A DNA stretch of 64,000 nt from Pomacea canaliculata (lineage: Eukaryota > Mollusca > Gastropoda > Architaenioglossa > Ampullariidae), in NCBI RefSeq assembly GCF_003073045.1, contig NC_037596.1, positions 10,971,950 to 11,035,949 on the forward strand. The letters run 5' to 3'. The position numbers and the translations under genes were made by a program. The notes under the pieces were generated by a model. That model worked only from the letters and a program-made list of their open reading frames with translations, searched no databases and was not told the DNA's origin. Numbering within the stretch: position 1 is the first letter of the stretch; every line of letters starts with the position of its first letter. Below are positions 7,994-60,666 of this stretch, one piece after another.

Positions 7994-8031
<38 letters not shown>

Positions 8032-9072: not shown

Positions 9073-12000
9073 ATGACTTCTTGTATCTACTTCATGTACA
9101 ATGCAAAAAAGATAACTTCTGCTTGGGTGCTCTCGCGGCAAAAAGTAGCGCTTAGTGTTGGTATTTTTGTGTTTATTAAGCCATACATGTCAAGAAAGTA
9201 CCGATTTCCCAGAAAAATCACTTGCCTCGAGCAGCATACCATCGAAGACTACAACACGGACTGAAAAGGTTAGAGGTATTTCATCTCAACATCAATGAGT
9301 GTGAATACACCAGTACTTTCCGCTCTTCCAGTCTGCGAAGTGTTATTTATGGGAAATCTGGGGGTCACAACCTTTCCAGGTCAGTCGCTGAATGCGCTTG
9401 GTCCATCGAAATACCGAAGGGCTATGTTCTGTCAAGTTATGTGCTTTTCCTCACGGATCCATGTTTGACCGATGTCACAATTACTATCGTCAGTAACTCC
9501 ACGATGTGCCCTGTTGTTGAAAACAAGTGCAAAGCCACTCAAAGACTCAGGGTAGTAGCGATAAGTGATCTCAACAATCATAGATTCTTTCTCAAAGACA
9601 GCCTGCAAAATTCATCCCTCATGATGGAGTTTCAAGTGCACTTTGAGGCAGTGGAGAAAAGCGTTTTGCCACACTTCCCATAGTCTTTACATCTCTAACT
9701 TCGGGCTATGTGACATCCCTATGGCTTTGAAGAGGGTAAGCAGTACCCTTGCGGCACTAATGCCTCGCGACAGATCACCGCCCCTGACGGTCACGTGATG
9801 ATGATAAGTTTTTCAGAAGTACAGCTTGAGGAAATGAATATTTTTTCCTTTTCTTCTCGAAATACAAGATTAATATACAAAATCAACGAAAGGGGATCTT
9901 TGATGCTTCTGAAAAGGTTGGCTCCCTTACAAAAAAGCCCAACACTTGTTGAAAAAAACATTCTTCTTCATTTTAAGGAAGACGTAAATTTCGTTATCGG
10001 GAGCAAAGTGGTATTCACTTTCATCCCTCATCTCAGAGTCCTCGACCTCTGGACAACGGGCTGTGGGATTGTTCTGTGCCCTACTACAACACTTTCAAAC
10101 TACATCTGGAATGCAATCAGGAGTCGGAGTGCGACGGAGGACAGGATGAGGGACTTCATTGTCCCTACAGTAGCCTCGCCTGTAACGGCTCTGTTGGAAC
10201 GGATACAAAATGCTACATTTATTTAGAGAATACAGAATTGCACAAATTAAGGTCTCCAGATGAGGAGTGTAGAAAGTTTGGAGGAAAAATAGCTACTATG
10301 AAATCTAAGAATGAATGGGAAGCGTTCACAAAATTATTTGAATTTAGCAAAAGTCACAAAACGGCTATAATCGGGTTGAAAACTTCTAACATAAACTGGC
10401 CAAAGTACTACAGGTATGCATTCAAATGGGTGGACAACACCATCGCTTATGAAACGAATACCACTCAGACTTATTTTGTCGATCTTTCTAGAAAGGTCTG
10501 TGCCACGTTCCATGTTTACTACCCTTATCGCACGCTGTTGGCGGAATGGACTTCACTCGGGACGAACAACGTGGTGTGTGAATATGAAGCAAATCTTGAA
10601 ACACATACCCCGCATGCTTCACTGAATGTTTCCGATACCAAGGTTTCTGTACTTTGGAACAATACAAAAGTGTCGATTACTTATTGTCCTTTAGGTCACG
10701 TTACTCACTCGTTTTTATCATGTGATCCTAAGACTGCTTGCGCAACAGCAAGCTCTTACCTCTTATGTCTAAGTAAAGATGTTTTTGGCGTTTCAATCGG
10801 AACACAAATGTTCAGTTGTGCTGAACAACTCAACGGCCTACACTACAGTCTAGTGTGCGATTTTAAAAAGGACTGCGAAGATGGGTCTGACGAACACTTT
10901 TGTATACACTTACATCAATGCCAAGAGTTTACTTGTCGTAACGGACAGTGCATTCCCTACAAGAGCTTTTGTGATATGTATACAGACTGCTGGGACGGGT
11001 CGGATGAGTATTGCACCTTTGCCTTCTTCTATAGAAATCCGGAAAGAATCAGACTGTTTCCTCCCGCGGTAGTTTACTTTGACGGTGAAGGTGATTTTTA
11101 CCAAGTACCTCTCGCACTTTCTGAGCCATGTCCACAAACGCACTTCCGGTGTGCAGGCGAGTTGGCTTACTGTCTGCCCGTGTACGTGCGCTGTAACGGT
11201 GTGTACGACTGTCCCTCCCACGAGGACGAGGAGGACTGTCAGCGATACACGTGTCCGGGCTTCTATCGCTGTCGTGGATCACGTGTTTGTGTCCATCCCG
11301 ACAACGTGTGCGACGGCTGGCCACAGTGTCCGCAACACGACGATGAGACTTTCTGTGGACTGAACTGTCCTGATGAGTGTTTTGTCAGGGTCTGGCATTC
11401 GTTTGTAACAAACCATTTCCGTCAGAAAAGTTTCCCGAACTACGCTACCTAGATGGTGTAATGTCAGGTATGAACCTTACAGACTTTTCTTCTAATTTAT
11501 ATCTTGTTTGGATAAGTCTAGCTTTTTGCGGGCTAACATCTATCTCTTCAGTTTATCTTCCAAACCTCCAGACTTTAGATCTTAGCGAGAACTATATAAC
11601 ATCCTGTGACCTTACCTCATTTGCAATACTAAACAACTTAAAAGTATTGCGTCTAGCTGGAAATCCTCTTGTTAATTTGATAAATAGCGGTTTTTCATAT
11701 ATGCACAAATATCTCCACACCGTGGATTTAACTCACACTTTGTTGATGGTGTTTGACAGCCGGACTTTGTTAATCTTTCAAACGTAGAGGTTTTAAACAT
11801 GTCGTTTAGTCAGGTTCAAAGAATAACAGATAATGGTTTTACTTACCTTGTACAGTTAAAACAATTAGACGTAAGAAATAACCCACTGGATATATTTCCT
11901 CGAAAAGTTCTAAAGGCCGCAAACTATTTACAAACGGTTTATTGTGATAATTATAAGCTCTGTTGTCCGCAAAACCTTCCAGACGCGTTTGAAACCGGTT

Positions 12001-12973
12001 CCTGTTTCGCTCCTGTCGATGAAATTTCGTCTTGCGATGATCTTTTGCGATCAGACATTTACCGCGTGTTCCTGTGGCTCTTCTGTGTTTTGTCAATTAC
12101 CGGGAATATTGGGGGATTTCTTTTTAGGCAACGTTTTCAGAAAAGCCTTTCTTTGTCCGGTTTCAATGTGTTTGTTACTAATTTGAGTGTATCTGACTTT
12201 CTCATGGGCGTGTATCTGGCTATACTCGGCGTAGCAGACGAGACCTACCGGTCAATCTATTTATGGCACGACCTCCAATGGAGAGACAGCACGACCTGCA
12301 AAGTGGCCGGCTTCCTGTCCTTCATGTCCAGCGAGGTGTCGACTTTGATCATCTGTCTCATCACCATCGACCGTTTTATCGTTCTCCGCTTTCCGTTCAG
12401 TAAATTCCGCTTTGAGCGCTGGTCAGCCTCGTGGGCTTGTGGACTGGCCTGGGCTGTGGGCTTTACACTGGCCGCTGTTCCTCTGTTGCCGTCTTTCTTT
12501 TACTGGGAGTTTTATGGTCAAAATGCTATCTGTATCCCGCTGCCAATAACCAGGAAAAGCTTTCGAGGTCGTAATTACTCATTTGGAATTATGATAGTTT
12601 TTAATATGTTCCTTTTTATACTTATTGCGCTTGGCAGGTCTGCATATACTGGTCAGTGCGAATGAATTCTATGAAAGTAAACTCGACCAAGAAATTAAAA
12701 GATATCATCATAGCACGCCGCCTGGCCACCGTGGTTGTGTCTGACTTCTTGTGCTGGTTTCCAGTCGGAATGGTCAGCATCATGGCTGCTTTGGGATTCC
12801 CCGTTCCTAGTGAGGTGAGTGTGGCTATGGCCATCTTTGTGCTTCCTCTCAACTCAGCTTTAAATCCTTTTTTGTATACCTTCAATGTGCTACTAGAGAA
12901 GTGGAAACGTGCCGAAGAGGAACGCATCTTAAAGAAAGTATTGCTCAAATTTTCATCAAATGACAAAAGTTAA
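9073..12973 (+). CDS. GRL101-like receptor B: CUB/C-type lectin/LDLa/LRR/7TM GPCR (frame-disrupted)
   Basis: Plus-strand subfamily member, diverged from D and F except in two near-identical tracts. Order: hydrophobic leader (the ATG at 9073 gives a segment SRQKVALSVGIFVF aligning with the D leader), CUB-like 1 (about 9280-9680), CUB-like 2 (about 9690-10030), LDLa-like (about 10065-10180), C-type-lectin-like domain (10185-10585), cysteine linker with [11 protein letters not shown] (10687-10790), four LDLa repeats (10810-11356), LRR N-cap and LRRs (11360-11940), CC hinge (about 11960), then seven helices (12056-12880) with IDRFIVLRF after helix 3 and NPFLY in helix 7. About six breaks. Those at about 11385 and 11775 are one T shorter than D in a T run, and the one near 12636 is a missing C in a CC pair. 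This pattern suggests consensus indels. The start is less certain than in D because no Met aligns with the D start. Confidence 0.77.
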
Positions 12974-20430: not shown

Positions 20431-21954
20431 GTGAAGTGTAGAGAATATGAAATTGCTTGCATTATGTCTGCCATAATCGTCATCGTTATTGTGGTATTCG
20501 TAAACCAAACATTTACTTATAAACGAACTTATTAAGTTCTCAGTTTATTTATATACAATATACATTCTAAGTAAGACATACACACGAAAGACATACACAC
20601 ACACTCGGACTTAGCAAAATTGTCGTCCACCCCACCCATATTCTGTTAGTTTTAAAATAACTTCTACTTGTTCTGATAGTAAGGCTGATCGGACGCATAT
20701 GCCAGTAAACCAAACTTTTGTCTTGAGCACAAGTATCTTCCGATCTTTTGGGGAATCAGAGAACTGAGTGGCTAAGGCACTGTCACCCTGGTTCGAGACC
20801 AATGTTTTTAAATATAAATGTCATTTTAGGGAGAAGTGCGTTGTTACACATCATAGTCGTCTTTTCGGGAAATCAGAGACAAGCAAAGAATAAGTTGGGC
20901 TTTTTTTCAGATTTACCACTAAGGGTAAACACGCCTAGTATTCAAACAGGTTTAGTGATTCAGTATTCCATTTTTATTTCCAAGTGCTCAGGATGGTAAA
21001 CATCAGGTAGAAATCGTATCACTAGATGACTAGATGCTTCTACTAGCTTCAGCCACACTGTTAACCTAATAAAGAGCCGGTGATTTCCCGATTAGCTCAT
21101 TTCATGGCAGAGTCCTCGATACTATTTTTAGTATTTTAGTAATCCTCTTACAAATGAATAGTTTACTAACAACCTAATGGAAAGACACACTTATCTGTGT
21201 TGACATCGGCGTAAATAACTACGTGTAGGGTCTGAGATGCTGAAGTCTGGGGTTCATGATGAGCATCTTCAATCCTAGCGATGACAGGGAAGACTCTATT
21301 TCAAACATTTGCATTCCTTACCAGGACAAATATTTTTGTTGTTGTCATCAGACAAGGAAGGGAAATGCGCCCTTTGTTCATGGTATTTACACGTCTCTAG
21401 CAAACACCTTGTCCGGTTGAGAACTGCGCATAGTAGGTAAGTATTTCAATATTTTTGCTTTTTTGTGATATTTGGCAGATTAACCTTGCTGTATGGTCGA
21501 AACAATTACCTGCAGGTTATAGTTGAAGGCACTGTCACTTGGTGAATCATTCAATCGAAAAACGTTTCTGCGTTTTTGAGAAATATGGGTATGCATTATC
21601 TCGCCTACTTGCCTACAACGCTGATAACATATGGCATTGCGCAAACTACGAGCTTGTGTCAGTGTCTAATGATAAAATGTCTGAAATGTTACAATTTTTA
21701 ATTAGTCGAACGTAATTTTACTTATTATCTGTCTTAGTAAGGAAGTGAGTTTTGTGAATTATAACGGATCATCGTTAACAAGCGTTTTTGTATTTCTTTG
21801 ATGTCGTGATTAACTAAAACCAATTGAACTAAATTAATAAATTAAAAAATATTGGCAACTGGTATTAAAAGATGTTTTCTTGTCTCAGGTGATACATCAC
21901 AGCCTACCATATGTGTTCCTTTACAGGTCACATGATATTGCATGCCACAGCAGG
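20431..21954. other. Probable 5' untranslated exon/intron of the ankyrin-SOCS gene
   Basis: No coding sequence is recognisable. Pyrimidine-rich acceptor-like sites TTGTCTCAG/G (AG at 21887-21888) and TTCCTTTACAG/G (AG at 21925-21926) lie shortly before the proposed start codon, which suits an intron ending here. No confident donor was found. Confidence 0.35.
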
Positions 21955-24900
21955 ATGGAGAACTCTACACAGAACCCCCAGAGCGTTCATCAGGACAGCT
22001 CCATGCTTCCAGAAAGCACGGTGCTGCTCAACTCAGCTGCTGAAGCTGGAAACTGGGATCTGGTCCAAGATGTCATAAGACATGGTGAGGTCACTGCCAC
22101 TGATGTCAGACAGTCTGTCATCCTACAGAAACTAGCATCTGCTACTGGGATTAGCCAGAAGCTTGTCAGAAACATACTAAACAGTTTGTTTTCAAACCGA
22201 TCCTCTGGCGACACACTAAAACACGTCGTGCAAGAAGCTTTCCTTAGAGCGGCTCACTGTGACAACTGGGACACCATGATATCTTTTATATCGGCGGCTT
22301 ACACTTTGTTTGAAGATGAGGCCAGCCTGCTCTCGGTGACAGAAGTTATGGGATCTAGCAAATCTCTCAGGAAAAACCGTTACCTGCAAATAGATGTTTT
22401 AGCTTGTGTTTGGAGACATGCAAAGCGGAATATTCTAGACAGCACAGACAAGAGAGTACAGAACACTTTGGTGCAGCTGGCGGCGGAACTCAACATGTGG
22501 TCACGTGTCTGTGACCTTCTCGTCGCTAAGCCGGACCTGAACAATTCTCGATAGGGATGGTTTGTCAGTCCTACACAGACTCGTCATGTGTCCTGACAGC
22601 AGGTTCGACTCTCTTCTTCCGGTTCTTCTGAAAAACGGTGCCGACGTCAACCTTAAGAACTCAGAGGGAAACACGGCACTGCACCTGGCTGCTAAACACC
22701 AAACAATGGTAACTCTCGGCAAGTCTCTAAATGTTGTAGACAGCGAAACAAGTCCTCAATGTCAGAACCTAAAGATGCAAATTATTGACAACTATCGGAG
22801 AAAACGTGCTGAATCAAAATGTCATGCATTAACAACGCTTATTGACACTTGTAATTACATAGATGAATGTGATCATCAAGGAAACACTGCCGCGTTGTTT
22901 GCTGCAAAGAACGACAACTGGGAGTTTTTGATCCTTTTGCTGAAACACGGCGCTCGTGTTGATGCCCTTGACCAGTCCCAGAGATCCGTGCTGCATATTT
23001 GTGCCCTGAGGGGATCATCCCTGGATCTTGTCACCTGTGAAACAATTGTCAATTTGTGTGTCAACAAAGGGGCTGGGTGGATGACCGAGACGCAGAAGGA
23101 CGTACAGCGCTTCATCTAGCTGTTGAGTCTCACAGTTGGACTGTGTTTAAGTCTCTGGTAAAACTTGGAGCGGACTTTATGTGTCGAGACAGGACTGGCT
23201 ACAATGTTCTGCACAAAATGGCTGTGGTCGAAAGCGAGCATTCACAAGATGTTACTTTCCTGTTTTCCCTTCTAGTTGAGCGAGGTGCAGATTTGAACGC
23301 CATCAGTCCAGAGGGTGATGCTGTTGTGCACATTGCCACAAGGCTGCAGAACTGGAAGTTAGTCAATCACCTCGTGTATCTTGGAGCAGACATAAATCTG
23401 TGTAACAGTGAAGGGTTCTCAGTTCTGCATATCCTTGCTCTATCTAAGCCTCTTTTCCAAGAAAGTGCTTCATGGAACCAGAAGAATCTCTGTAAAAATG
23501 ATACGATAGTTCAATCTCTCCTTGATTTTCTCCTCAAAAGAGGAATGAACCTGGAGCTCCGTTGCTCAACAACAGAGACAGCGCTCCATCTGGCGGCTAG
23601 ACACGACAAACTGGTTCATGGTCAAATACTTGGTTCAGCGAGGAGCTAACATTCTTGAATTAGACAGCGAAGGTTGTTCTATCCTTCAAAGACTAATTTG
23701 TTGCAGAAGTGAAATCCGGGACATGGAGATCTTTCTTAGTATTCTTCGTCAAAGTGGCGGCCGCAGTAGTTTACCACCTACTGCTGGTGGAAATTCCCTG
23801 CTGCAACTTGCCGCGAAGCATGAAAAGTGGGAAATCGCAGACTATATTTTAAAAGATAAAGGAGGGAACGTCGACCAGCTTGACAACGAAGGCTGCAGTG
23901 TTCTTCACAGAATGGCTACAAGCCGAGGAAGAACATTTAAAGAAGGTCTATGGTGCTTTTCGATCAGACCCATTTTTCACAACTCTACAAATCTTGACGA
24001 GCAAAAACGACATGACCTCATCCATCAGGCGGCTGCTGCAGGAAATGTCGACGTCGTGGACGCACTGCTCGACAATTTTGATGATGTCAACAGAGTAGAC
24101 TGCGCAGGGTTCACGGTTCTACACAGAGTGGCTCAGTGTTGTGTGTCCACATCAGTGGCTATCATCCGACGCATTGTCCAGAAAGGCGGAGATGTAGACA
24201 AGAAGTGTCCTGATGGTAACACAGCTTTACATCTCGCAGCAAAAAGCAACAACTGGTTGGCTGTTCAGCATCTGCTAAAGTATGGAGCGAGTGCTAATAC
24301 TCTCGACACTGAGGGGATGACGGTTCTACACAGACTGCTTGGTCAGCCACATTTACGGTGTAGACAATGTGCGCAGAGACCATATAGTGAAATCACAGTT
24401 TTATTACTTACTGATATTTTATTCCAAGGTGCCTTAATCAATCAGAGAGACCTAAAAGATAATACTCCTTTGCATCTTGCTGTCAAGAATGAACATTGGG
24501 ACATGGTAATAGAACTCTTGGCTCGAGGGGCTTCTATGAATGAACGAGACTCCTGTGGATGCACTGCTCTTCACACTATTGCCAAACGCCGGAAAAAAGA
24601 CATCAACAACAAAATATCCATTGACAGCAGTTGTGTGACCTGTTCTATAAATGGTGGCTCAAATATTCAGATGTTTAAGTCTAATACTTCTAGCGAAGAC
24701 AGTATTTATCTGGTCATGTGCGACTATTTTGTCAACAACACGATGCTTATTGATGTTTTGGATCCTGATGGTAATACAGCACTGATGCTTTCTGTGAAAA
24801 ACAACAACTGGGACATCACAGAACGACTCCTGCTTAAAGGCGCGAACGTTTGCATATTGGATCGTAAGGGCGTGTCTGTCCTTCATGTTCTGGCTTCTGC

Positions 24901-27012
24901 AACACCAGAATGTGGCAGTGATCTCTTGCGTCAGCAGCTGTCGAAGAAAATACTGGACTTGTTAATCTCAAATAGTGCTGACATCAATGCACGAGACCCA
25001 GAAGGCAACACACCACTACAACTGGCTGCAAAGCACGGGAACATGGACATGGTGGAGAACCTCTTGGAGTTTCTAGACGACGTGAACGAGACTGACAGTG
25101 AGGGCTTCACCCTGTTGTCGAGAGTCGCTCAGACCTTGTCTCCTAAATGTGAGGACATCACCATCTGGCTGTTGGAGAACGGTGCTGACGTGGACTTCGC
25201 GTGTCCTGACGGTAAGACACCACTAGTACTGTCAGTCATCTCCAAGAATTGGATGATGACGTCGTTATTGCTGGATTTTGATGCCAACATCGACAGTCTG
25301 TTTTTGAAAGACCATCTAATTGTGCATCGTCTTCTTGAAGATTCAAGATTGAAAGAAAATTGTGACATAGAAAGTGAAATTCTGATGCGAGTGATTGAGT
25401 TAGGAAATGACACATTTTTGCATAGAAGTCCTGACGGCCGATCCCCAATACAACATGCATTCATGAAACGAAAGTGGAACATTGTTGAAATGCTTCTTGA
25501 AAATGGAGCTTACACCGACCCAGAACCTCTTCTAGGAGAATTTGTGTTTCATGATTTCGCAGACTGGGCCTCAGAGTCTCAAATGGAGGACGAAGACTGG
25601 ATCCTGTCTCTGCTGCCCAGCGGTAGCCTGAATATAAACTTACGTGATAGTAATGGTGACACTCCGCTGAACATCTTGGCACAAAACGGTCAGTGGCAGT
25701 TAGTGCGGTGGTTTGTGAGCACGGAGCAAGCGTAAACGTGGCAGACAGCAAAGGGTGGACAGTGCTTCACCGACTGGCCATGATGTATTTCTTCTCGGGT
25801 GGGGAGGGTTTCAGACCTGCCCGTGTTCTGAAGTCGATTGTGGAAAAGGGTGCTGATATCAACGCAGCGGGGCCAGAAGGTAAAACAGCTGTCCAGGTGG
25901 CAAAAGAGAAGAAAAACTGGATTATCTTCTGGAGTCTCGTGCAGTTAGGGGCAGAGTATAACTGGGATGACGCTGATAAACAAGTCATTCTTGAAAATGT
26001 GTGTCATTTCAAAAAACGTGGTGCACAAGCAGACAATCTAGAATCTGTTATAAAGTGCCTCACAGACCCCTTTTCAAATTTAACGAGATTGCAGACACCA
26101 GAAAGTCCTCCACTATTGCTCAATGCCTTGGAAAAATGTGTCCAGTATTCAAACTGGACAGTGGCCAAAGTCCTGCTTCATTATTGCCCTAATCTAAGCT
26201 TTAAAAGTTCAGTAAAGAACAGCTATTTGTTGGACACTATGGTTTCTTCATACCGCAAAAAGGAGCATGTGATCTGGGTTTCTTTTCTTGATACCCTGAT
26301 TGAGCGAGGCCTTGACATCAACAGTCGAGGGAGAAGCGGGCAACCGGTACTATTTCACTGGAAAGTTTTAATTGGGTTTATATACAAAAACCAGAACTCG
26401 TTCTTAAAAGTTTTGCTTCAGAGAGGAGCCGATCCGTGGGCTTTGGACATCGAAGGACATTCATTCCTTACCAAGGTTCTGCGTGAGTCAGGTACGTTTG
26501 TCTTAAAAGCATTTATCTCCCTTATACAGTTGGGAGTTATTCCTCAGGAAAAATATCTTAAGAATGTAGCAGCATCCGTCTCACCGACGAGAACTGCGGT
26601 TCAGAAGAAGGACTGGTCTGTTCTGAAGATCTTGACTAAATGTGGTGCCAGCACCAACTCGGAGCTTTTCTCCCTTCACACAGAGTATCAGCTAAAAAGA
26701 GCTCAAGATGCTGAGAGAGAAAGATCCATGCCTGATCAAGTTGGTCTGATTCTAGAGCAGGCAGCAACTCATCCAAGTTCTTTAGAATCCCTCTGTCGCC
26801 TCGCTGTTTCTCGCTGCCTTCCGTGTGGTTTGGGTAGAAATGACTCGGTCAGGTCCCTGTGCTTGCCATCAGTATTACAAGACTACCTATTGTTCATCGA
26901 CGTGCTCTCTGATCCCGAGCTCTCGTCGATTGTCATTAAAAACAACTCTGACGACAGCTCTGATGCTGACGATCTTGATGATGACTCCGACGAGGCGTAC
27001 TTATCAGACTAA
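21955..27012 (+). CDS. Ankyrin-repeat protein with C-terminal SOCS box (ASB-like, frame-disrupted)
   Basis: Likely substrate receptor of an Elongin B/C-Cullin 5 ubiquitin ligase, by analogy with the ASB family. About 1,680 codons, much longer than typical ASBs. I count about 28 ankyrin units from about 22560 to 26680, recognisable by TALHLAAK or SVLHRLA cores. They alternate: a unit with a conserved Trp (NNWLAVQHLLKYGA type) is followed by a DxEGxSVLHRLA unit, giving a two-repeat period. Near the end, 26770-26905 encodes SLESLCRLAVSRCLPC and LCLPSVLQDYLLF, matching the BC box and Cul5 box. The usual LPxP has Cys at the first Pro. An Asp/Ser-rich acidic tail follows. The frame changes about four times (near 22550, 23070, 23605 and 25715). 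At 23605 one extra A in an A run explains the break, because removing it restores an NW-type repeat. The start at the ATG at 21955 is preferred because splice-acceptor-like sites lie just upstream; 21880 is the longest open start. Confidence 0.85.
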
Positions 27013-27720: not shown

Positions 27721-27784
<64 letters not shown>

Positions 27785-27813
27785 GCAGCAAGCAGCAGCA
27801 GCAGCAGCAGCAG
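27721..27813. repeat. CAG/GCA trinucleotide expansion (about 31 units, two interruptions)
   Basis: A nearly pure run of GCA units broken only by two GCAA steps near 27781-27791, about 0.7 kb past the ankyrin-SOCS stop codon. Open frames across it are Ser-, Ala- or Gln-only and are not genes. It may lie in a long 3' untranslated region. Confidence 0.95.
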
Positions 27814-35644: not shown

Positions 35645-38600
35645 CTATGTTGTGTTAATACAGCCGAGGACATCTTTTTTCTGTGTCTTTTGGCAGCGAG
35701 ACTGCAACAACTTCAGCAAGCGCAGTCTCTGAGATTTTCTTGTCGCTTCACGATGAATACTAATGGCGTACAAAAGAGGGTTTGTGGAAGAATTTAACGG
35801 GTAGACCAGTAACGTTAGAGCGGTGATGACGTCACGAGGGTAGGACATTTCCATTTGGGTCGTGACCCCAATTACACTCAGGAGTAAACAAGACAAAGTT
35901 TTTGTGAACAGCAGAAGGGTTAATCGGTGGATTAAGGTCTTTTCTCTAGTCTTTGTTTGGACCGAGTGGTCAGAAATACACACTGAAATACTACACACAC
36001 TGCCAGCATAGAATAGGTCAGCTGTCAGACTTAAGATGACATTTAGAGCAACAATTACACCGAAAAAATTTGGCCACAAGATAAAGTCACCCTTGTGTAA
36101 CGGTAGAGGTGTACAAACGGAATTATGTCTGTACAAATCGAACTGACTTGAAGAAAGTAAGAATGGTAGAACAGAGAGAACAAGACCAACTATCCAAGTG
36201 CAAGAACAAGCAATGAACACTAAAGAGCCTCGAAAAATGTAAACCTGAAACTTAGTTACCAATAGTCTTTCTATTGTCATCAGCAAAAGAGTAAGAATAG
36301 ACACCTCAGAAGACAGGAAGTACAGAAAGCCGACAATCTGACAAAGATATCCACTTGTCCACGATTGTTCATGCCAAACGTAACGATCTCGATACACCTC
36401 ATCTACGATTCCGATTACGAGCAGATAAATAGCCATTAGTAGATCCGAGATGTTAAGATTTATTATCAAAAATTGAAAGGCAAAGCTAACGTTTTCTTTA
36501 TCGATGAAGATTGTGTAGAGACCACAACAGATGTTTCCGACAAATGAAAGGAGAAACAAAATCCAAATGACAACATTAAGCGATTTTAAACGCAAAAGAT
36601 TATCACAAGAAGATAGAGCATCAAAGGGCGAGAAACAACGCAAATTTTTAGTATCTGGTAGAAATTCTTTGCAGCAAAAGGTGTAGTAGCTGACATGCAT
36701 GAGCCGCAGTGAGGTCAGAGGTCTAAGTGTCTCGTTGTGAATATGTTTGATGTCGCTTCCTCTCATATCTAACTCAATCAGTTTTTGAGTGTATCGGAAA
36801 CAGTCCGCACTTAGAGATTTTACGAGACTAAACGAGAAATTCAGAACTTGGACATTCGGAAAACTCGAGAGCACATCACATTGAAGTACCTTTAACAACG
36901 TTCGGGACACATCTAAATACGTCAGTGGGGAAATACCTGGCACGATACTGGTATACAAGGACTGCAAGGGATTTCCTGCAAGTCGAAGAACACGAAGATT
37001 TTCAAGCTGCATGAAATACGACATGTCAAGCCATCCTATAAGGTTGTCACTCAAGTCCAGTGTTTGAAGACTAGGAAAGGACATGTTAGAAAGAATTTGA
37101 AGTTTACAAGCAGCTAGACTAAGCCACACAAGGTTAATGCTTGGACTCAAATCTCGTGTTGTCATTCCAGAGCCACTGGCATCTAAATAGCGCATAGCAG
37201 GGAATTTCTGCATATTGAATTTCTCTGAGCACACGAACGCCAGACCCTGACACACACAGCCTTGAGGGCAGCTCAGCTCACAGAACAGTTCGTCGTCGTG
37301 TTGTGGACACTGTGGTCGGCCGTCACACATGTGGTCCACGTGCACACATACGCTAGATCCGCGACACCTGTAGAAACCTGGACACGTGTAACTCACACAG
37401 TCTTCCTCGTCCTCGTGATAAGGGCAGTCGTACACGCCGTTACACCGCACGTACACAGGTAGACAGTAGCCGTCTGGTGGACACCGGAAGTGCGTGTAAG
37501 GGCATGAGTCAGATGAGTTAAGTTTTTTGTAGGTGACATCATTTTGCTGATCAAAGTCTATTACTGCTGGTGGGTACGCAAAACTTGTTGAGTTAACATT
37601 CCATCCTCTAAAAACAACACAGTCTTCGTCTGAGCCATCCCAGCAGTCTCTATTAACATCACACAGTTTATGAGAATCCACACTCTGACCGTTAAGACAC
37701 GTGAATCCAGTACAGTTATAATCTCGACTGCAAAAGTTCTCGTCAGATCCATCCGGACAGTCTGGTCTAAAGTCACACACGAGGCTAAAGTGCAGAGTTT
37801 GACTAGAATGAAGGCACATAAACATGGCAGTGATAACAGATCTTGTGCCCGCCATTGATGTCTGGCAGTTCAGGAGAAAAGATTGTGAACCACACTTGCT
37901 GGATTCGTCACATGACAGGAAGTCAAAAGTAAAGTGGCCGTCAGGACACCACACGTAGTGGCTGTTAATGAGTTTTGTGAGGTAGTTTTTATGCACAAGT
38001 GGCATCACTACAGGCATCTGAGGCTCAGGCTTTGTGACAGAAAATTCACATAGTGGAATACTGCCTCTGCTCTCTTGATTGCAAGATTCTTTTAAGAAGT
38101 GTTCATAATACAAATTGAAAGTAAAACATGAGGAATAGTATACATTAACGAACAATATTCAAGAGCAGATAATTATAATTATAAGCTACAGTGCCATCTG
38201 ACCAGACCAAGACTTTCTTGTACTTAGGGGGTAAAGTACCATCGTACGTGCTCAAGCCTGTGTACATATCTACTGGCGACTTTTCAAACTGGTAAATTCT
38301 CTTTAAGGCATCCCATTCCTTATCAGTCTTTACACTAGCGAGCTTACCTCCTCTGTTTCGGCATTCCCGACTTCCCGACGACCAGGCGGAGAACTGTTTA
38401 GATTTTAAAGAAACGTAGCAGTTGTTTCCTATTGCAACAGAGCCGTTACAGGCGGGACTGCTGTAGGACAGTGAGGACCCTCGTCCTCTCCTCCTTGGCA
38501 CTCCACCATCAGGTTACAGTCCAGGTGTTGTTTGAATGTATTATAGTGGGGGACAGAACAGTCCCACAAATCACCGTCACGCTTGGCTGGCGCTTCATGA

Positions 38601-39710
38601 TCAGGATGAAATGTAAAGATCATTTTGAAACCTCTCCCTTCACATATTTTTGTGAAGAAACGAACTTGGACAGAATGGTCCAGAACTAAGGCCGGTGTTA
38701 TGGAATTTATGCAGATTTCAATCATTTTTATAAAGGTTCCATTGCCTTCAATTGTATACAGCTGAATAAAAGCCATTTGCAGGAATATAATATTTGGGCG
38801 TGAATGTCCAGATAGGAAAAACTTACCATAACCACATGGCTGAGTGGAACATAAACAGTGCGAGAAGCGTTCATAAGACAATTGTGTCTTCTGTTGTCAT
38901 CGAAACCCCATGTAGTCACGTAGCCTGAAGTAGGAGACGTGAAAAAAAGAGGTAACATCATTCGCAAGTCTTTGTCGTTGGCAGTAAACCGTAGCTTTAG
39001 TTCACTGATACTTCGTGACATTGTGATTCGGAAAAAGATGTGATTAGTGCCACTCAGCAACATCGGAAAATAGCGGGCTTCGAAACTATGAGTAGTCAGA
39101 GGGTCTTTAAAATTGGGATCTTCTGAAGCTTTGATGGAAACTCTCTCCATTTGTCTGCTGTAGTCTAGCGTGGCTTGGACATACTTTCTTCCTGAAACGA
39201 CAATTTTAAATGTGCAGTAAGGCAGCGATTTGCCATGGGCTGTTTGTTGTGTTGAAAGAGACGCGGATAACGCCAGACTCAGCTGAAAAGGTGATGACTT
39301 TTTCTCTCAAGCACTTGTCCTCTCGGAGTTCGTATACTTCTTCTGATTTGCTTTGCTCGCGCACTTGCGGTACACCATAATAGTCACCTTGGTTGGTTTT
39401 TATACGTGAAATTGTTCATATTCAACAAGATCCATTGATGAGTAGGAATAACTTTTGTGACATCGTTGTGATCTTTTGAACTGGAAACAACAGAAGAGTC
39501 CTGGAGTGTAACATTTTTGAAGTCGTTTCGGACGAAATCAAATGTGTTATTTACGAAAGAAGATAATGTGTTATTGGTCGGCGTTACAAGAGTTTCTACT
39601 GTTTCTGTCTGAAAACAAATCATCAGGCGGACACCTTGCCTACAGCCTAACTCCAGAGACATAGCCAGCAGAAAATATTGGAAAAGCCAATGTCTTTTTA
39701 TGCAAAACAT
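35645..39710 (-). CDS. GRL101-like receptor C: CUB/C-type lectin/LDLa/LRR/7TM GPCR
   Basis: Best-preserved minus-strand copy: 836 codons are open from the end of the lectin domain to the stop. Reading leftward: signal peptide from the ATG at 39710 (MFCIKRH, conserved in E), CUB-like 1 (about 39310-39010), CUB-like 2 with [16 protein letters not shown] (about 38945-38620), LDLa-like (38580-38465), C-type-lectin-like domain (38460-38040), linker with CPDGHFTFDFL (37950-37830), four LDLa repeats (37825-37275; WDGSDE, CNGVYDCPYHEDEEDC), LRR N-cap and LRRs (37265-36720), CC hinge (36690-36600), seven helices (36590-35780). Helix 3 ends IERLLVTKF rather than DRY, and helix 7 has NPLLY. LDLa 2 shows GQSVD where E has GQCVD, losing a cysteine. 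Frame changes near 38150, 38465, 38740 and 39240 fall in the N-terminal half. Divergent from D, 1.85 kb apart. Confidence 0.85.
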
Positions 39711-41559: not shown

Positions 41560-44500
41560 ATGCATTCGCAACAAAAAATAGCGTTAGTGACGGTATTACT
41601 ATTCTCATTAATCAACTCATGTTATCCAGATGACAATTACTCAGGAACATTAACTAAATTGAGTAGTAAAATATCTGATACAAAACAAAGCATTGAAGAC
41701 CTAGAGATATTTCATCTGAATATTAATGAATGCGGACACAACTCCACCTTTCGCTTTTTCAGTCGAAAAGGTTTGATCTACGGAATATCGGGAGGGCACA
41801 ACGTTTCCAGGTCTGTCCCTGAATGCACTTGGTCCATCGAAGTACCAAAAGACTATATCGTGTCAAGTTATGTTTTTTTCCTTTTGGATCCGTGCTCCAT
41901 CGAAGTCACTGTCACTGCCATCAACAACTCTACTCAGTGCAATGAATCGAATACCTGTGCAAAGCCATTAAGAGACGCAGGGTAGTCGCAGTAAGTGATC
42001 TCAACAGCAAACCTTCTTCTTTAAAGACAGTCTGCAAAACACATCAGTCACTGTGGAATTTCAAGTACATTTGGAGGCAGTGGTAAAAGACCTTTTGTAT
42101 ACCCTTCCGATAGTCTTTACGTCACCCACATCTGGTTATGTGACATCACATGGCTTTGAAGATAATAAGCAGTACATCTGTGGCACTAATGCCACGGCAG
42201 ATTACTGCTCCCGATGGTCACGTAGCAATGATCAGCTTTTCAGAAGTACGGCTTAAAGAATTGGCTATTTCCTACCTATCGCATGGAATTGTAATGGCCG
42301 TATACAAAATTAATGAAACCGGATCATTAATCCTTTTAGAAAGACTTGATCCCCTAGAAAAAGGCCCAATACTCGTTGAAAGAAACATACTTCTTTATTT
42401 TAAAGAAGATAGAACCTTCAGCCTTGGAAGCAAAGTGATTTTCACCTTTCACCCCTCATCTCAAAGCCCTCGACGTTTAGACAGCGGGCTGTGGGATTGT
42501 TCAGTATCGTACTACAATGCGTTTAAACAACACCTGGAGTGCAACCTGGAGTCGGAGTGCTATGGAGGAGAGGACGAGGGTCCACAGTGTCCATTCAGCA
42601 GTCCCGCCTGTAACGGTTCTGTTGCAGCGGGTACAAAGTGCTACTTAATACAAAATAGTAAATCGTACAAAGAGAAGTTTTTAGATAAAGAGTGTAGAAA
42701 GTTTGGAAGACACGTAGCTAATATGAAATCTAAGCAAGAATGGGAAGCGTTCACTGAAATGTTTCAATTTAGCAAACATCACAACATGGTTCTAATTGGC
42801 TTGAAAACATCCGACACAAGTTGGCCAAAATACTACAGATATGCGTTTATGTGGAGTGATGCAACAGTTGCTTACGAAACAAATACTACACAGACATATT
42901 TTGTGGATCTCTCTAGAAAGGTCTGTGTCTTTTACGACTCGTACTATCCTCATCGCTCGATATTAATGGAATGCTTTTTAACTGACATTAACAAAGTTGT
43001 GTGTGAATATGACAGTCCGCTCGAAATACATTTCCTAGCGGATCCACTGCATGCCTCGGACATAAAATCCTTTACAATTTGGAACAATACGAAAGTTTCT
43101 ATTATTTACTGTCCTTTAGGTCACGTGACACACTCGTTTTTATTGTGTGATCCAAACAGTGTTTGCGGAACAGATACCCTGCCATTGACCTGCCAAAGTA
43201 AAGATGTTTTGGGTTCTTCAATCGAAACACAAATGTTTATTTGTGCCGAACAACTTTCTAGCTTGCCTTACAGTCTCGTGTGCGATTTCAAAGAGGACTG
43301 CGTAGATGGGTCTGACGAACACTTTTGTAAGCACAACAGTAAGTGCCACGAGTTTACTTGTCGTAACGGACAGTGCATTCCCTACAAGAGCTTTTGTGAT
43401 ATGTATACAGACTGCTGGGACGGGTCGGACGAATATTGCACCTTTGGATACTTCTATAGATATCCGGAAAGAATCAGACTGTTTCCTCCCGCGGTAGTTT
43501 ACTTTGACGGTGAAGGTGATTTTTACCAAGTACCTCTCGCACCTTCTGAGCCATGTCCACAAACGCACTTCCGGTGTGCAGGCGAGTCGGCTTACTGTCT
43601 GCCCGTGTACGTGCGCTGTAACGGTGTGTACGACTGTCCCTCCCACGAGGACGAGGAGGACTGTCAGCGATACACGTGTCCGGGCTTCTATCGCTGTCGT
43701 GGATCACGTGTTTGTGTCCATCCCGACAACGTGTGCGACGGCTGGCCACAGTGTCCGCAACACGACGATGAGACGTTCTGTGGATTGAACTGTCCTAGTG
43801 AGTGTTTTTGTCAGGGTCTGGCATTCGTCTGTAACAAACCATTTTCGTCAGAAAACTTTCTCGAGCTTCGCTACCTCGACGCTGGTCAGTCAGGTATGAC
43901 CCTGAACAACTTCACGTCTAATTTGTATCTTATTTGGATCGGTCTACGTTTGTGTGCACTGACATCTGTCCCATCAGCTTATCTACCAAACCTTCAGACT
44001 TTAGATCTTAGCGATAACTATATAACTACTTTTGACTTTAAATCCTTTGCATTACTAAACAACTTAAAGGTGTTGCGTCTAGCTGGAAATCCCCTTGTTA
44101 ATTTGCTGAATAGCGGTTTTCCCTATTTACAAAAAACTCTTGAGACCGTAGACATAAGTCGCACATTACTAACGATATTTGACAGCAAAACTTTTGTTAA
44201 TCTTTCAAACGTGGAAGTTTTAAATATGTCATTTAGTCCGGTTCAAACAATATCAGATGAGGGTTTTAGCCACCTGGTACGTCTAACAAAACTTGACATG
44301 AGAAATAATCCTCTGAAGATATTTCCTCGAGAAGTTTTAAAGACTGCAAGATATCTCCACACGGTCTATTCTGAAAATTATAAGCTTTGCTGTCAACAGA
44401 ACCTTCCAGATCACTTTGATGCTGGTTCCTGTTTCGCTCCTGTGGATGAAATTTCGTCGTGTGATGATCTGTTGAGATCTGACGTGTACCGCGTGTTCCT

Positions 44501-45394
44501 GTGGCTCTTCTGTGTTTTGTCCATTACCGGGAATGCTGGGAGCTTTTTGTTTAGACAGTTTCTTCAAAAGAACTCTTCTGCTTTAGGTTTCAGTGTTTTT
44601 GTTACTAACTTGAATGTATCTGATTTTGTCATGGGCGTGTATCTGGCCATATTAGGTGTAGCAGACGAGACCTACCGGTCAGTCTATTTATGGCACGACC
44701 TCCAATGGAGAGACAGCACGACCTGCAAAGTGGCCGGCTTCCTGTCCTTCATGTCCAGCGAGGTGTCGACTTTGATCATCTGTCTCATCACCATCGACCG
44801 TTTCATCGTTCTGCGCTTTCCGTTCAGTAAATTCCGCTTTGAGCGCTGGTCAGCCTCGTGGCGTGTGGACTGGCCTGGGCTGTGGGCTTTACACTGGCTG
44901 CTGTTCCTCTGTTGCCGTCTCTCTCTGACTGGGAGTTTTATGGACAAAATGCTATCTGTATCCCGCTCCCCATAACAAGGAAACTGTTTAGAGGTCGTAG
45001 CTACTCTATAGACATTATGATCATCTTAAACATGGTGTTGTTTTTTATTATAGCGTTTGGCCAAATCTGCGTTTACTGGTCAATCCGAGTGAATTCCATG
45101 AAGGGAAACATGGCTAGGAAATCGAATGATGTTATCATAGCTCGCCGCCTTGCAACTGTCGTAGTGTCTGACTTCTTGTGCTGGTTTCCAGTCGGAATGG
45201 CCAGTATTTTGGCTGATTTGGGATTCCCCGTTCCTAGTGAAGCGAGTGTGGCTATTGCCATCTTTGTGTTGCCACTAAACTCAGCTATAAATCCTTTTTT
45301 GTACACCTTTACTTTGTTGCTCGAGAAGTTAAATCGTGTTGAAGAGCAAAGGATTTTAAGCCAATTACAGCTAAGCCTCTCTTTTGAAAAATAA
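41560..45394 (+). CDS. GRL101-like receptor D: CUB/C-type lectin/LDLa/LRR/7TM GPCR
   Basis: Best-preserved plus-strand copy, open for over 900 codons. Signal peptide from the ATG at 41560 (MHSQQKIALVTVLLFSLINS, cleavage before CYPDDN; the same leader in F). Then CUB-like 1 (41720-42110), CUB-like 2 with [12 protein letters not shown] (42115-42460), LDLa-like with [12 protein letters not shown] (42490-42600), C-type-lectin-like domain (42601-43015), cysteine linker (43080-43230), four LDLa repeats (43235-43785; [15 protein letters not shown]), LRR N-cap (43788-43850), LRRs (43860-44340), CC hinge (44385-44470), seven helices (44484-45320) with GN in helix 1, IDRFIV after helix 3, NPFLY in helix 7, and a short tail. 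The lectin domain shows no EPN/QPD or WND triplet, so classical calcium sugar binding is doubtful. Breaks: near 41945, two bases near 42196, and one G lost from GGG at about 44859 in helix 4, where B and F have the G. Confidence 0.87.
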
Positions 45395-54676: not shown

Positions 54677-56818
54677 TCTTCTTTTCAATAGTATCATCAT
54701 TTATGTCCGGCTTTGGCTCTGACTTTCAATATCTCTTGGTTTCGTGAAAGGGGAAACACTGGACTACACAGTGAAAGGAAAGAGAGACTTTTATGAAGAG
54801 TAGTTCTTTGAAACCTAGTAACAATTCTGTGTACGAAGTTTACAATACGTTCTGGTGATTGCTAACCACTTTTATACCACAGGTGAGGACTAACACCAAA
54901 TACTGATATTTAAATGCTACGAACAAACATCGTCATGACTGGTTAAATACAATTAAAAGGAAACTAGTCAAAGCTTTAAATCATGTTTATATATATCTAC
55001 ACACACACACAACTGCAAAAAATTCACACACAAGCACTTAAAAGCCCCCCACACAGACACACACACACCACACACAGACATACACAAAATATATTTTTCT
55101 TATTTAAACGTCACAGACATTTTATTTGTGCACATAATACAAGAAGAAAGCGATTTTACCCAAGAACTGAAATTTGATGACATACTTGATTAATACAATC
55201 TTACATAAAGAATAATAGTATGTATTTCAGAAAATGTTATCTAAGTTTTTAAATTAAGTTCAAGTCAGAGCTTTGCTGTGTTATCCGTTTTTTTATATTA
55301 AAATTTCCTTCGAGCATCTTATATTGTTAAGGTGATTGGAAAGTTTATTTCATGCAGTCAAAATTCACATGCAGTATTGAAAATGCACACACACACCACG
55401 CGGTTCTTTTTTTTACCACAATTAACAATTTAGTTCCAGCCTTTAAGGAAAAATGAATACTACATAACTTTTATCAGATGAATGAAAATGTATGCATCAA
55501 TAATATTACGAGGAAAGACTTTTAAGAGTTTAATATTTTGTTTTAATTTTTAAACAATGTACTTGAAATACGATTAACACTAAGAAATAGTTTTCGTAAC
55601 AGCAAAAATATTTACGTGTTCCTTCACACATCGCCTCTTGTCACATTTAATTTATCAGCAGCTCAAGTTTTTTTTTAAAAATGGAGGACTTTTACAAATG
55701 AAATATTGCTCTGAGAGTGCTCTGTTCAGAATGGATGCATATATCAGTGAAACCAAAACATATTTCTGATAGTTCACCGTTAATTCCTTAAATGGCACAT
55801 GTGTGTAAGATGTAGACTTTTTAAAACAGATTTCATTAAATATGACTTACTTAGTACCTCCGAAATTTAACATACATGTCCAAGAATTGATGTGTGATAC
55901 TCATGTAAGTTGAATTTGCGTTCCTCTGGTATGCGCATCTGCCGTCTCTGCTACAATCCGTGTGCCAGAAGGAAATGAACAGGTGATGATGAAACTGTTG
56001 CTGTGGATATTATTGTTCTTGTTCGGAAAGGCCTGAACTTTTCAGATTTTAAAAATATGAAGTCGGATACTCACATTAATATACAAAATAAACTAGCGAC
56101 AATGAGCTTAACTTTTTTTTAGAGAACCGTAAACTCTAGACTTCTTTTTTTCTGCTTATTTTACTCATTTAACCACTTTGTTGTGTAGCCATTTAAAAGT
56201 AGCTGTTAAACGCAAGCGTGCTTATAGCAGTTTTTGTTATTTGTGTGTTAACGTCAGATCTTTGATAATACGTTTAAATAAGTAGTACGTCAAACATATC
56301 CTACGATACAGAGTAACAGTGTTTTCATAGACAAAAGCATTTAAAGATAACATTTTCAAAATTTATTAAAAGGGAATTATGAGTACTTATGAGTACTAGA
56401 GCAAAATTATCTGGCGCTAAAGACTTTTTTTAAAAAAAAATGGTCTTTTGGTTATAGTATATAATGGATAAAATAAAATATTCACAAGCTTTTTGAGAGA
56501 ACATGCCGTCTCTGAAACCAGTAAATTGTTAGTACAGGTTCTAATAGTCTGGGATCTGTTAAACTTTGCGTCAGGAGCGTAGTGAATGTAGTACTGAAAG
56601 GATTCGGCTACCCGCTTATAAAACTTACTATTCTTACATTTCAACAAAAGAAAACGTAATGATCCATATTAGAAGTTAGCAAATTAAGAGAAGACAAAAA
56701 GGAGAAAGCTACATACAGGTTAATGTCTTCAACCCAGCTTTCTCGATTTATTGGAATGATTATTGCCACGAAAAGACGCTGGTTGAGACAGAACAACGAA
56801 TACAAAATATACAGCCAA
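54677..56818. promoter_or_regulatory. Divergent intergenic region between receptors E and F
   Basis: For E: a minus-strand TATAAAAG at 54869-54876, about 190 bp before the ATG. For F: AAATGAAATATTGCTCTG at 55697 followed by a weaker ATATATC where D has its TATA box, then a block ending GAACAG/GTGATG (donor-like GT at 55983), and an acceptor-like CATACAG/G at about 56718 just before the coding region. A 5' untranslated intron of about 0.7 kb is possible. CA repeats lie near 55000-55080. Confidence 0.5.
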
Positions 56819-59800
56819 ATGTACTTGCAACAAAATAACGTTCTATGGACGATATTGATGGTATCATTGAGCCACTCATGTTATCCAGATGCCAATTTCT
56901 CAGGAAAGTGGAGTAGTAAAATATCGAAGACAACATCAAGTATTGAAGACCTAGAGATATTTCATCTGAATATTAATGAATGCGGACACAACTCCACCTT
57001 TCGCTTTTTCAGTCGAAAAGGTTTGATCTACGGAATATCGGGAGGGCACAACGTTTCCAGGTCTGTACCTGAATGCACTTCGGTCCATCGAAGTACAGAA
57101 GACAATATAGTGTCATTATGTTTTTTTCCTTTTGGATCCGTGCTCCATCGAAGTCACTGTCACTGCCATCAACAACTCTACTCAGTGCAATGAAGTGAAT
57201 ACCTGTGCAACCATTAAGAGACGAGGGTAGTCGCAGTAAGTGATCTCAACAGCAAACCTTCTTCTTTAAGACAGTCTGCAAAACACATCCGTTACTGTGG
57301 AATTTCAAGTACATTTGGAGGCAGTGGTAAAAGACCTTTTGTATACCCTTCCGATAGTCTTTACGTCACCCACATCTGGTTATGTGACATCACATGGCTT
57401 GGAAGATAATATGCAGTACATCTGTGGCACTAATGCCACGCAGCAGATTACTGCTCCCGATGGTCACGCAGCGATGATCAGCTTTTCAGAAGTACAGTTT
57501 CAAGAAATTGATGATTTCTACCTATCGCAAGAAAGATTTAATAGCTGTATACACAATTAATGAAACCGGATCATTAATACTTTTAGAAAGGTTGACTCCT
57601 CTAACCGCGGGCCCAATACTAGTTCAAAGAAACATACTTCTTCATTTTAAAGAAGAGAGAAACTGCAGGATTGGAAGCAAAGTGATTTTCACCTTTCACC
57701 CTTCATCTCAAAGCCCTCGACGTTTGGACAGCGGTCTGTGGGATTGTTCAGTATCGTACTACAATGCGTTTAAACAACACCTGGAGTGCAACCTGGAGTC
57801 GGAGTGCTATGGAGGAGAGGACGAGGGTCCACAGTGTCCATTCAGCAGTCCCGCCTGTAAGGGTTCTGTTGCAGCGGGTACAAAGTGCTACTTAATGCAA
57901 AATAGTAAATTGTACAAAGAGAAGTTTTTAGATAAAGAGTGTAGAAAGTTTGGAAGACACGTAGCTAATATAAAAACTAAGCAAGAATGGGAAGCGTTCA
58001 CTGGAATGTTTCAATTTAGCAAACATCACAACATGGTTCTAATTGGCTTGAAAACATCCGACACAAGTTGGCCAAAATACTACAGATATGCGTTTATGTG
58101 GAGTGATACAACAGTTGCTTACGAAACAAATACTACACAGACATATTTTGTGGATCTCTCTAGAAAGGTCTGTGTCTTTTACGACTCGTACTATCCGCAT
58201 CGTTCGATATTAATGGAATGCTCGTTAATCAAATTAAAAAAAGTTGTGTGTGAATATGACGTTCTGCTCGAAATACATTTCCTACGGGATTCACTTCATG
58301 TTTCAGACATAAAATCTTCTATAATTTGGAACAATACGAAAGTCTCTATTACTTACTGTCCTTTAGGTCACGTGACACACTCGTTTTTATTGTGCGATCC
58401 AAACAGTGTTTGCGGAACAGATACCCTGCCATTGACCTGCCAAAGTAAAGATGTTTTGGGTTCTTCAGTCGAAACACAAATGTTTATTTGTGCCGAACAA
58501 CTTTCTAGCTTGCCTTACAGTCTAGTGTGCGATTTCAGAGAGGACTGCGTAGATGGGTCTGACGAACACTTTTGTAAGCACAACAGTAAGTGCCACGAGT
58601 TTACATGTCGTAACGGACAGTGCATTCCCTACAAGAGCTTTTGTGATATGTATACAGACTGCTGGGACGGTCGGACGATATTGCACCTTTGGATACTTCT
58701 ATAGAAATCCGGAAAGAATCAGATTGTTTCCTCCCGCGTAGTTTACTTTGACGGTGAAGGTGATTTTTACCAAGTACCTCTCGCACCTTCTGAGCCATGT
58801 CACAAACGCACTTCGGTGTGCAGGTGAGTCGGCTTACTGTCTGCCGTGTACGTGCGCTGTAACGGTTGTTACGACTGTCCCTCCCATGAGGACGAGGAGG
58901 ACTGTCAGCGATACACGTGTCCGGGCTTCTATCGCTGTCGTGGATCACGTGTTTGTGTCCATCCCGACAACGTGTGCGACGGCTGGCCACAGTGTCCGCA
59001 ACACGACGATGAGACGTTCTGTGGACTGAACTGTCCTAGTGAGTGTTTTTGTCAGGGTCTGGCATTCGTCTGTAACAAACCATTTTCGTCAGAAAACTTT
59101 CCCGAGCTACGCTACCTCGACGCTGTCAGTCAGGTATGACCCTGAACAACTTCACGTCTAATTTGTATCTTATTTGGATCGTCTACGTTTGTGTGCACTG
59201 ACATCTGTTTTTTTTCCCATCAGTTTATCTACCCCCCCCAAAAAAAAAAACCTTCAGACTTTAGATCTTAGCGATAACTATATAACTACTTTTGACTTTA
59301 ATCCTTTGCATTACTAAACAACTTAAAGTGTTGCGTCTTAGCTGAAAATCCTTGTTAATTGCTGAATAGCGGTTTTCCCTATTTACAAAAAACTCTTGAG
59401 ACCGTAGACATAAGTCGCACATTACTAACGATATTTGACAGCAAAACTTTTGTTAATCTTTCAAACGTGCAAGTTTTAAATATGTCATTTAGTCCGGTTC
59501 AAACAATATCAGATAATGGTTTTAGCCACATGGTACGTCTAACAAAACTTGACATGAGAAATAATCCTCTGAAGATATTTCCTCGAGAAGTTTTAAAGAC
59601 TGCAAGATATCTCCACACGGTCTATTCTGAAAATTATAAGCTTTGCTGTCAACAGAACCTTCCAGATCACTTTGAGGCTGGTTCCTGTTTCGCTCCTGTG
59701 GATGAAATTTCGTCGTGTGATGATCTTTTGAGATCCGACGTGTACCGCGTGTTCCTGTGGCTCTTCTGTGTTTTGTCAATTACTGGGAATGCTGGGAGCT

Positions 59801-60666
59801 TTTTGTTTAGACAATTTCTTCAAAAGAACTCTTCTGCTTTAGGTTTCAGTGTTTTTGTTACTAACCTCAACGTATCTGATTTTGTCATGGGCGTGTATCT
59901 GGCCATATTAGGGGTAGCAGACGAGACCTACCGGTCAATCTATTTATGGCATGACCTCCAATGGAGAGACAGCACGACCTGCAAAGTGGCCGGCTTCCTG
60001 TCCTTCATGTCCAGCGAGGTGTCGACTTTGATCATCTGTCTCATAACCATCGACCGTTTCATTGTTCTGCGCTTTCCTTTCAGTAAATTCCGCTTTGAGC
60101 GCTGGTCAGCCTCGTGGGCGTGTGGACTGGCCTGGGCTGTGGGCTTTACACTGGCCGCTGTTCCTCTGTTGCCGTCTTTCTCTGACTGGGAGTTTTATGG
60201 ACAAAATGCCATCTGTATCCCGCTCCCCATAACAAGGAAACTGTTTAGAGGTCGTAGCTACTCTATAGACATTATGATCATCTTAAACATGGTGTTGTTT
60301 TTTATTATAGCGTTTGGCCAAATCTGCATTTACTGGTCAATCCGAGTGAATTCCATGAAGGGAAACATGGCTAGGAAATCGAATGATGTTATCATAGCTC
60401 GCCGCCTTGCCACGGTGGTGGTGTCTGACTTCTTGTGCTGGTTTCCAGTCGGAATGGCCAGCATTTTGGCTGATTTGGGATTCCCCGTTCCCAGTGAGGC
60501 GAGTGTGGCTATTGCGATCTTTGTGTTGCCACTTAACTCAGCTTTAAATCCTTTTCTGTACACCTTTAACTTTTTGCTAGAGAAGTGGAACCGTGTTGAA
60601 GAGGAACGAAACTTAAAGCAGTTACAGCTTAGTCTCTCTTACATTGACAAAAGTTTTAATGAGTGA
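56819..60666 (+). CDS. GRL101-like receptor F: CUB/C-type lectin/LDLa/LRR/7TM GPCR (frame-disrupted)
   Basis: Duplicate of D at an offset of about 15 kb. Signal peptide from the ATG at 56819 ([20 protein letters not shown], then CYPDAN), CUB-like 1 (56960-57350), CUB-like 2 (57355-57700), LDLa-like (57730-57840), C-type-lectin-like domain (57841-58255), linker, four LDLa repeats (58480-59030), LRRs (about 59100-59580), hinge (59645), seven helices (59740-60570) with IDRFIV and NPFLY. Helix 4, broken in D, is intact here. From 59359 to the stop the frame is open. Indels cluster at 57080-57260 and above all at 58670-59360, where over a dozen single-base losses and three inflated homopolymers occur relative to D. 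Both sides of that stretch read cleanly, so bad local consensus is likelier than gradual decay, though a real lesion cannot be excluded. An upstream in-frame ATG at 56723 is judged less likely because the leader aligns with D only from 56819. Confidence 0.82.

Follow-up and report, generated by a model that had tools for sequence, protein, structure and literature searches.

Results

Gene D and Its Copies in the Window

The window analysed is a 64,000-base stretch of Pomacea canaliculata DNA (C7:10971950-11035949), and the genome searched for relatives comprised 440,159,624 bases in 24 contigs. Gene D (also D2 below) is on the plus strand and begins and ends where the first-pass annotation had placed it, with the start ATG at 41560 and the stop TAA at 45392-45394. 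It lies head-to-head with C2, its C-type partner on the minus strand (35681..39680, 5 frame breaks), with 1.8 kb between the aligned starts. The other window copies are D1 (9152..12958, plus strand, 7 frame breaks) with its partner C1 (3157..7231, minus strand, 8 frame breaks), and D3 (56813..60651, plus strand, 12 frame breaks and 1 in-frame stop) with its partner C3 (50675..54646, minus strand, 6 frame breaks). A run of A of 51 bases, possibly an insertion remnant, is present between C1 and D1 (7968-8018).

The same annotation had read gene D as one intronless frame. As assembled, it consists of five stretches in three frames, separated by four breaks near 41944, 42006, 42194, and 44859, three of one base and one of two bases. 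A frameshift-aware alignment to L021, an intact D-type relative on C6 with a frame of 1304 codons, covered 1280 codons at 64% identity with no in-frame stop. Introns were ruled out as the source of the frame changes in D2, since each frame gives way to the next within a few bases and the alignment to L021 continues without interruption. Complete single frames (1304-1438 codons) are known from relatives elsewhere on C7 and on C6, namely the D-type L021 and the C-type L019, L022, L024, L026, and L032 (1335-1438 codons), so an intronless frame is supported for the gene type, whereas a single frame is not confirmed for gene D as assembled. Likewise, the architecture had been ascribed to all six copies, and all six do align nearly end to end with the intact references (58-65% identity), but none of them is a single frame.

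Domain Order

The domain order proposed from the sequence was confirmed by Pfam and profile searches. A signal-peptide-like start, recognised by eye (41560..41622), is followed by a first CUB-like domain (approximately 41725..42085, profile A6), which contains the breaks near 41944 and 42006, and by a second (approximately 42110..42485, profile A7), which contains the break near 42194. Next come an LDLa-like cysteine module (42486..42605, alignment A2, weak Pfam LDLa), a C-type-lectin-like domain (CTLD; 42606..43013, A2 profile against PDB), a cysteine linker with the first LDLa (approximately 43107..43329), and LDLa 2-4 (approximately 43341..43785, Pfam Ldl_recept_a 3.4e-23). The LRR block (approximately 43790..44384, Pfam LRR_8 1.9e-19) leads into the hinge and the seven helices (7TM; 44385..45391), where Pfam 7tm_1 matched in two frames and which contain the break near 44859. 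All of these are on the plus strand.

The CUB domains and the CTLD could be identified only with multi-copy profiles, scores of single proteins being mostly below the Pfam cut-offs. With the CUB1 profile A6, all seven PDB matches were CUB proteins, the best (1.1e-4) spanning a short core only and the longer matches reaching 0.08-0.3. The CUB2 profile A7 matched PCPE-1 (4.5e-9), cubilin (3.3e-8), and C1r (3.3e-5); CUB proteins made up six of its nine matches and the other three were at E >= 1.3. A joint CUB1-CUB2 profile (12 stretches) returned CUB proteins in 8/8 matches up to E 10, the best at 2.3e-5. In hhalign the two CUB profiles did not match each other; the probability was 8%, and only their ends overlapped, over 13 columns. 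The profile of the LDLa-like module and the CTLD (A2, 14 stretches) gave 71 PDB matches up to E 1, with C-type lectins at the top (best 1.3e-11); we take the best 60 of the 71 to be CTLD proteins, except for one labelled TNFalpha.

In gene D, Pfam itself gave no call for CUB or for Lectin_C. Up to E 10, Lectin_C was found in 11 of the 14 A2 members (best 2e-5), gene D not being among them, and below the cut-off in two other window copies; LDLa was weakly matched in the module preceding the CTLD in 12 of the 14 (best 0.027). The CUB stretches gave CUB_2 in 8/12 (best 0.016) and CUB in 1/12 (0.0023), Pfam CUB was found in two of 15 rows (best 0.00051, the gene D row not being one), and six relatives scanned whole had no CUB match up to E 1. 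Four LDLa stretches were counted in the D2 open reading frame and 4-5 in the six relatives. Of the two 7tm_1 matches of D2, one, at 25.2 bits, falls short of the cut-off of 30.5 and the other reaches 47.1 bits; the intact D-type gene scored 87.8 bits, and two of the four intact C-type genes scanned (L019 and L032) had no 7tm_1 match. GAIN/GPS, a mark of adhesion GPCRs, was not matched by Pfam in gene D, the window copies, or the six relatives. EPN/QPD and WND are the canonical calcium and sugar motifs of carbohydrate-binding C-type lectins, and visual inspection of the CTLD alignment (14 rows) showed none of them. Taken from sequence, these matches support the assignment of gene D as a predicted GRL101-like, LRR-containing class-A GPCR with a CUB-CUB-LDLa-CTLD-LDLa(4)-LRR ectodomain.

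Frame Breaks

To the breaks of the six window copies were added those of further copies in the same family. Seventeen stretches, each aligned on both strands, gave 34 best alignments, and removal of four weak ones scoring below 900 left 30 copies; three of these, all C-type (10.80, 10.83, and 10.955), are incomplete at the ends of the extracted DNA, and the copies at 8.35, 11.05, 11.07, and 11.09 Mb and several at C6:28.0 are outside the set. Over 35,966 aligned codons we counted 93 frame breaks, 76 of them with a net size of one base, and 2 nonsense codons. Neutral decay at usual indel-to-substitution ratios would be expected to leave many more than two nonsense codons. About 4% of random substitutions would give nonsense, and on an assumed nonsense share of 20%, two or fewer among 95 lesions would occur with a probability of 2e-7.

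The window copies could be real pseudogenes of a birth-and-death cluster in which only some copies elsewhere are functional. All six are broken, and the matches at C7:8.35 Mb contain several stop codons. Homopolymers are not enriched at the breaks (58/93, or 62%, against a background of 57%), so this sign of sequencing error is absent, and in a list favouring best matches other tandem GPCR clusters of the same assembly, including those on C11, are mostly open. We nevertheless regard pseudogenes as improbable, because nonsense codons are so few against the frame breaks, dN/dS is well below 1 in the seven closest D pairs (0.28-0.47), the broken D copies keep their 7TM motifs, and an unrelated gene breaks at a similar rate. 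The latter, an intronless ankyrin-repeat gene on the plus strand (21880-27012), is spread over five overlapping or adjoining frames with four switches, and its repeats run on across each of them. Its rate is about 1/430 codons against 1/387 in the receptors, this control being a single gene judged by eye. An array of about 30 GCA triplets lies downstream of it (27721-27813).

The excess of breaks over nonsense codons, the similar rate in the ankyrin gene, and the low dN/dS suggest that the frame breaks are probably consensus errors of the assembly and that the genes are intact in the animal. The assembly was made from PacBio reads with Pilon from a highly heterozygous snail, as described for this genome (PMC6129957), which fits such errors. 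Since the other tandem GPCR clusters read mostly open, the error rate must then be regional.

Relatives with Introns

The first-pass annotation had treated the CUB and lectin-like modules as additions to the GRL101 design. A GRL101-like receptor carrying both is indeed supported; that they were added in these genes is not borne out, and modules new to the window genes were ruled out, by intron-bearing GRL101-like relatives with the same domain order, L039 (C2) and L040 (C14), whose exons were deduced from open frames. In L040 these exons hold CUB1 (seen by eye), CUB2 with the LDLa-like module and the first part of the CTLD, the second part of the CTLD, an LDLa, and LDLa-LRR-7TM. The intron within its CTLD has GT..AG ends, and its position is identical in L039.

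The LDLa+CTLD module is also found on C1, C2, C3, C9, and C14; its search gave a total of 145 matches, a figure that includes the window family and counts each piece separately. Separate short LDLa+CTLD frames lie upstream of LDLa-LRR-7TM frames on C2, C9, C14, and elsewhere. The search with the CUB module gave 55 matches, all on C6 and C7; it misses distant members, since the CUB1-like exon of L040 on C14 went unmatched. Judging from these gene models, the domain order probably predates the intronless copies, which look derived because their intron-bearing relatives share the order. That the window branch is without the introns of L039 and L040 suggests a retrocopy, and the branch probably arose by retroposition.

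Head-to-Head Pairs of D-Type and C-Type Genes

Beyond the architecture, the new observation made here is the head-to-head pairing of these receptor genes. Twenty head-to-head units are present, 18 on C7 and two on C6, and 19 of them join a D-type gene with a C-type gene whose ectodomain is similarly built; 14 of the 20 were checked in the DNA sequence, and for the other six the evidence comes entirely or in part from search tables. In the 11 units measured, the aligned starts are 1.4-2.8 kb apart. No unit clearly missing one partner was seen, the search lists being lower bounds, and as far as the search tables go the copies at C6:27.94-28.06 form no such pairs. Stray CTLD fragments at C7:10.256-10.261 Mb may be the remains of a further unit.

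In the tree, the 15 D rows form one clade and the 10 C rows another, and the inner orders of the two clades largely match, with the exception of p1, which falls with p2 and p3 in the D clade and beside 10.91 in the C clade. The D and C distances of 10 units are correlated with a Mantel r of 0.97, from which it follows that the pair duplicates as a unit. The 19 D/C pairs stem from one founder, so their shared orientation is not independent evidence for each pair. Alignable intergenic DNA is confined mostly to close units; beyond those there is a single 81-base match, between p1 and p2, and a conserved promoter is therefore not demonstrated.

A distant head-to-head pair of CUB-CTLD receptors, L041/L042, lies at C6:19363500-19375500. 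It belongs to neither the D nor the C clade and may have arrived at the same design independently (clade 97/92); a shared origin was not rejected by the AU test (p 0.28 and 0.069).

Unequal Seven-Helix Cores

In the 10 pairs compared, the D gene keeps a canonical 7TM that is better conserved than that of its C partner. The D set used for the 7TM and dN/dS comparisons (n=17) includes two unpaired copies at C6:27.9; DRF is present in 17/17 of its members, CWxP in 16/17, and NPxxY in 17/17. Among the C genes the corresponding counts are 8/10 for ERL, 0/10 for CWxP, and 9/10 for NPxxY. Over 10 units the mean 7TM protein difference is 0.19 in D versus 0.49 in C. The mean 7TM dN is 0.118 in the D set (ratio to dS 0.13) and 0.407 in C (ratio 0.27), and in the three recent unit pairs in which both 7TMs were available the nonsynonymous to synonymous counts are 53:74 in D versus 97:65 in C (p 0.003). 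Between p1 and p2 the 7TM dN/dS is nearly equal (D 0.24, C 0.27), and gene conversion may account for the lower synonymous divergence of D in such deeper comparisons.

The C6:19.37 pair has the same asymmetry, the plus member having CWFP and the minus member no CWxP, with branch lengths of 0.45 and 1.27, respectively. Two C-type genes, L019 and L024 (C7:9.72 and 10.26), have a 7TM without the E/DR motif though the frame is open (1357 codons).

Change in the Ectodomain

Between D2 and D3 the nonsynonymous to synonymous counts are 80:27 in CUB1-CTLD and 9:28 in the hinge and 7TM (p 1e-7). Six recent D pairs, which are not all independent, were compared in this way. Faster change of the ectodomain was significant in two (p 1e-7 and 0.006); in the other four it was not (p 0.16-0.53), one of them leaning the opposite way, and in the listed C pairs the difference between ectodomain and core was never significant (p 0.051-1). 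In the D set, dN is highest in the CUBs and the CTLD. Positive selection on these tips was considered and is not supported, no region being clearly above a dN/dS of 1 (regional values at most about 0.9-1.0, D2 versus D3). In LDLa 2-4 (43341-43785 and its equivalents) the mean dS is 0.45 against about 0.9-1.5 in the other D domains, and this much lower synonymous divergence suggests gene conversion.

These receptors might also be ordinary peptide-hormone LGRs (type C2, insulin-like ligands), with CUB and CTLD as accessory ligand capture and the pairing as a by-product of duplication. GRL101 has been grouped with the LGRs of relaxin type, and a role as IGF receptor has been proposed for it, in the portions of the literature consulted (PMC8286064, PMC4079206), and the descent of all the compared D/C pairs from one founder suits a by-product. 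Dozens of diverging copies are ill-suited to a single conserved hormone, as is the concentration of dN in the CUBs and the CTLD, and we hold hormone receptors to be unlikely.

Discussion

A core of CTLD, LDLa, LRR, and 7TM is already known from the SudRes2 receptors of Biomphalaria sudanica, which are discussed as possible pathogen recognisers in the parts of that report consulted and are distinguished there from Lymnaea GRL101 by the possession of a C-type-lectin domain (PMC12297450). The Pomacea genes resemble them in having the CTLD N-terminal of LDLa, LRR, and 7TM, in their clustered paralogues, and in a candidate immune role; they differ from SudRes2 as described in their two CUBs, their intronless frames, and their D/C pairs with unequal 7TMs. 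The words CUB, head-to-head, strand, orientation, and bidirectional do not occur in the SudRes2 main text. With Lymnaea GRL101 and arthropod LGR5 (type C2 LGR) they share multiple LDLa, the LRRs, and a rhodopsin-type 7TM, twelve LDLa being reported in those receptors; a word search of the two main texts found no mention of a CUB or lectin domain (PMC8286064, PMC4079206). From L039 and L040, which have the same order, the window branch differs in being intronless and paired. Among titles and abstract starts in open-licence PMC, an LRR/LDLa GPCR with CUB and lectin domains in such order was not found, GRL101, CUB, and C-type lectin co-occurred only as words used apart, and nothing was found on Pomacea with GRL101.

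The best explanation, to which we give about an even chance, is that these are GRL101-like CUB/CTLD receptors of an intronless branch, part of a large family in apple snails, and that the D/C pairs of this branch are co-expressed as two-part receptors. We infer that the D and C genes would be co-expressed from the common intergenic region and that their proteins would assemble into one receptor. The variable CUB/CTLD tips would bind a ligand, perhaps a parasite, microbial, or altered-self surface molecule, and the LDLa/LRR/hinge portion would relay this binding onward. The D subunit would then activate the G protein, with C mainly contributing binding or gating. In the works-like sense only, such pairs recall plant paired NLRs such as RPS4/RRS1, whose genes are likewise linked and whose partners divide the work between them. 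The NLRs are unrelated to the snail receptors and are intracellular. A more demanding version, a two-gene GPCR recognition system of obligate head-to-head heterodimers in which a constrained signalling subunit and a partner with a signalling-freed 7TM were multiplied as a unit into some nineteen copies, is a tentative proposal that we think is rather less likely than not to hold.

Large tandem expansions would also fit a non-immune role, in chemosensation or in the recognition of mates or gametes, and GRL101-like expression is reported from starfish sensory organs in the part of that work consulted (PMC6267866). The Biomphalaria CTLD-GRL101 cluster, however, sits in a schistosome-resistance region, though the top variants of that region are in a neighbouring Zn-RING-IAP gene according to the same parts of the SudRes2 report (PMC12297450); a sensory or mating role appears rather unlikely.

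Frame breaks in the P. canaliculata assembly may conceal working genes. The same core, preceded by two CUBs, is found here in a distant snail. On this basis the SudRes2 proteins are predicted to carry CUBs that have gone unnoticed, and the design to have arisen earlier. If the D/C pairs are co-receptors, they would offer a concrete, testable receptor design for parasite resistance in snails.
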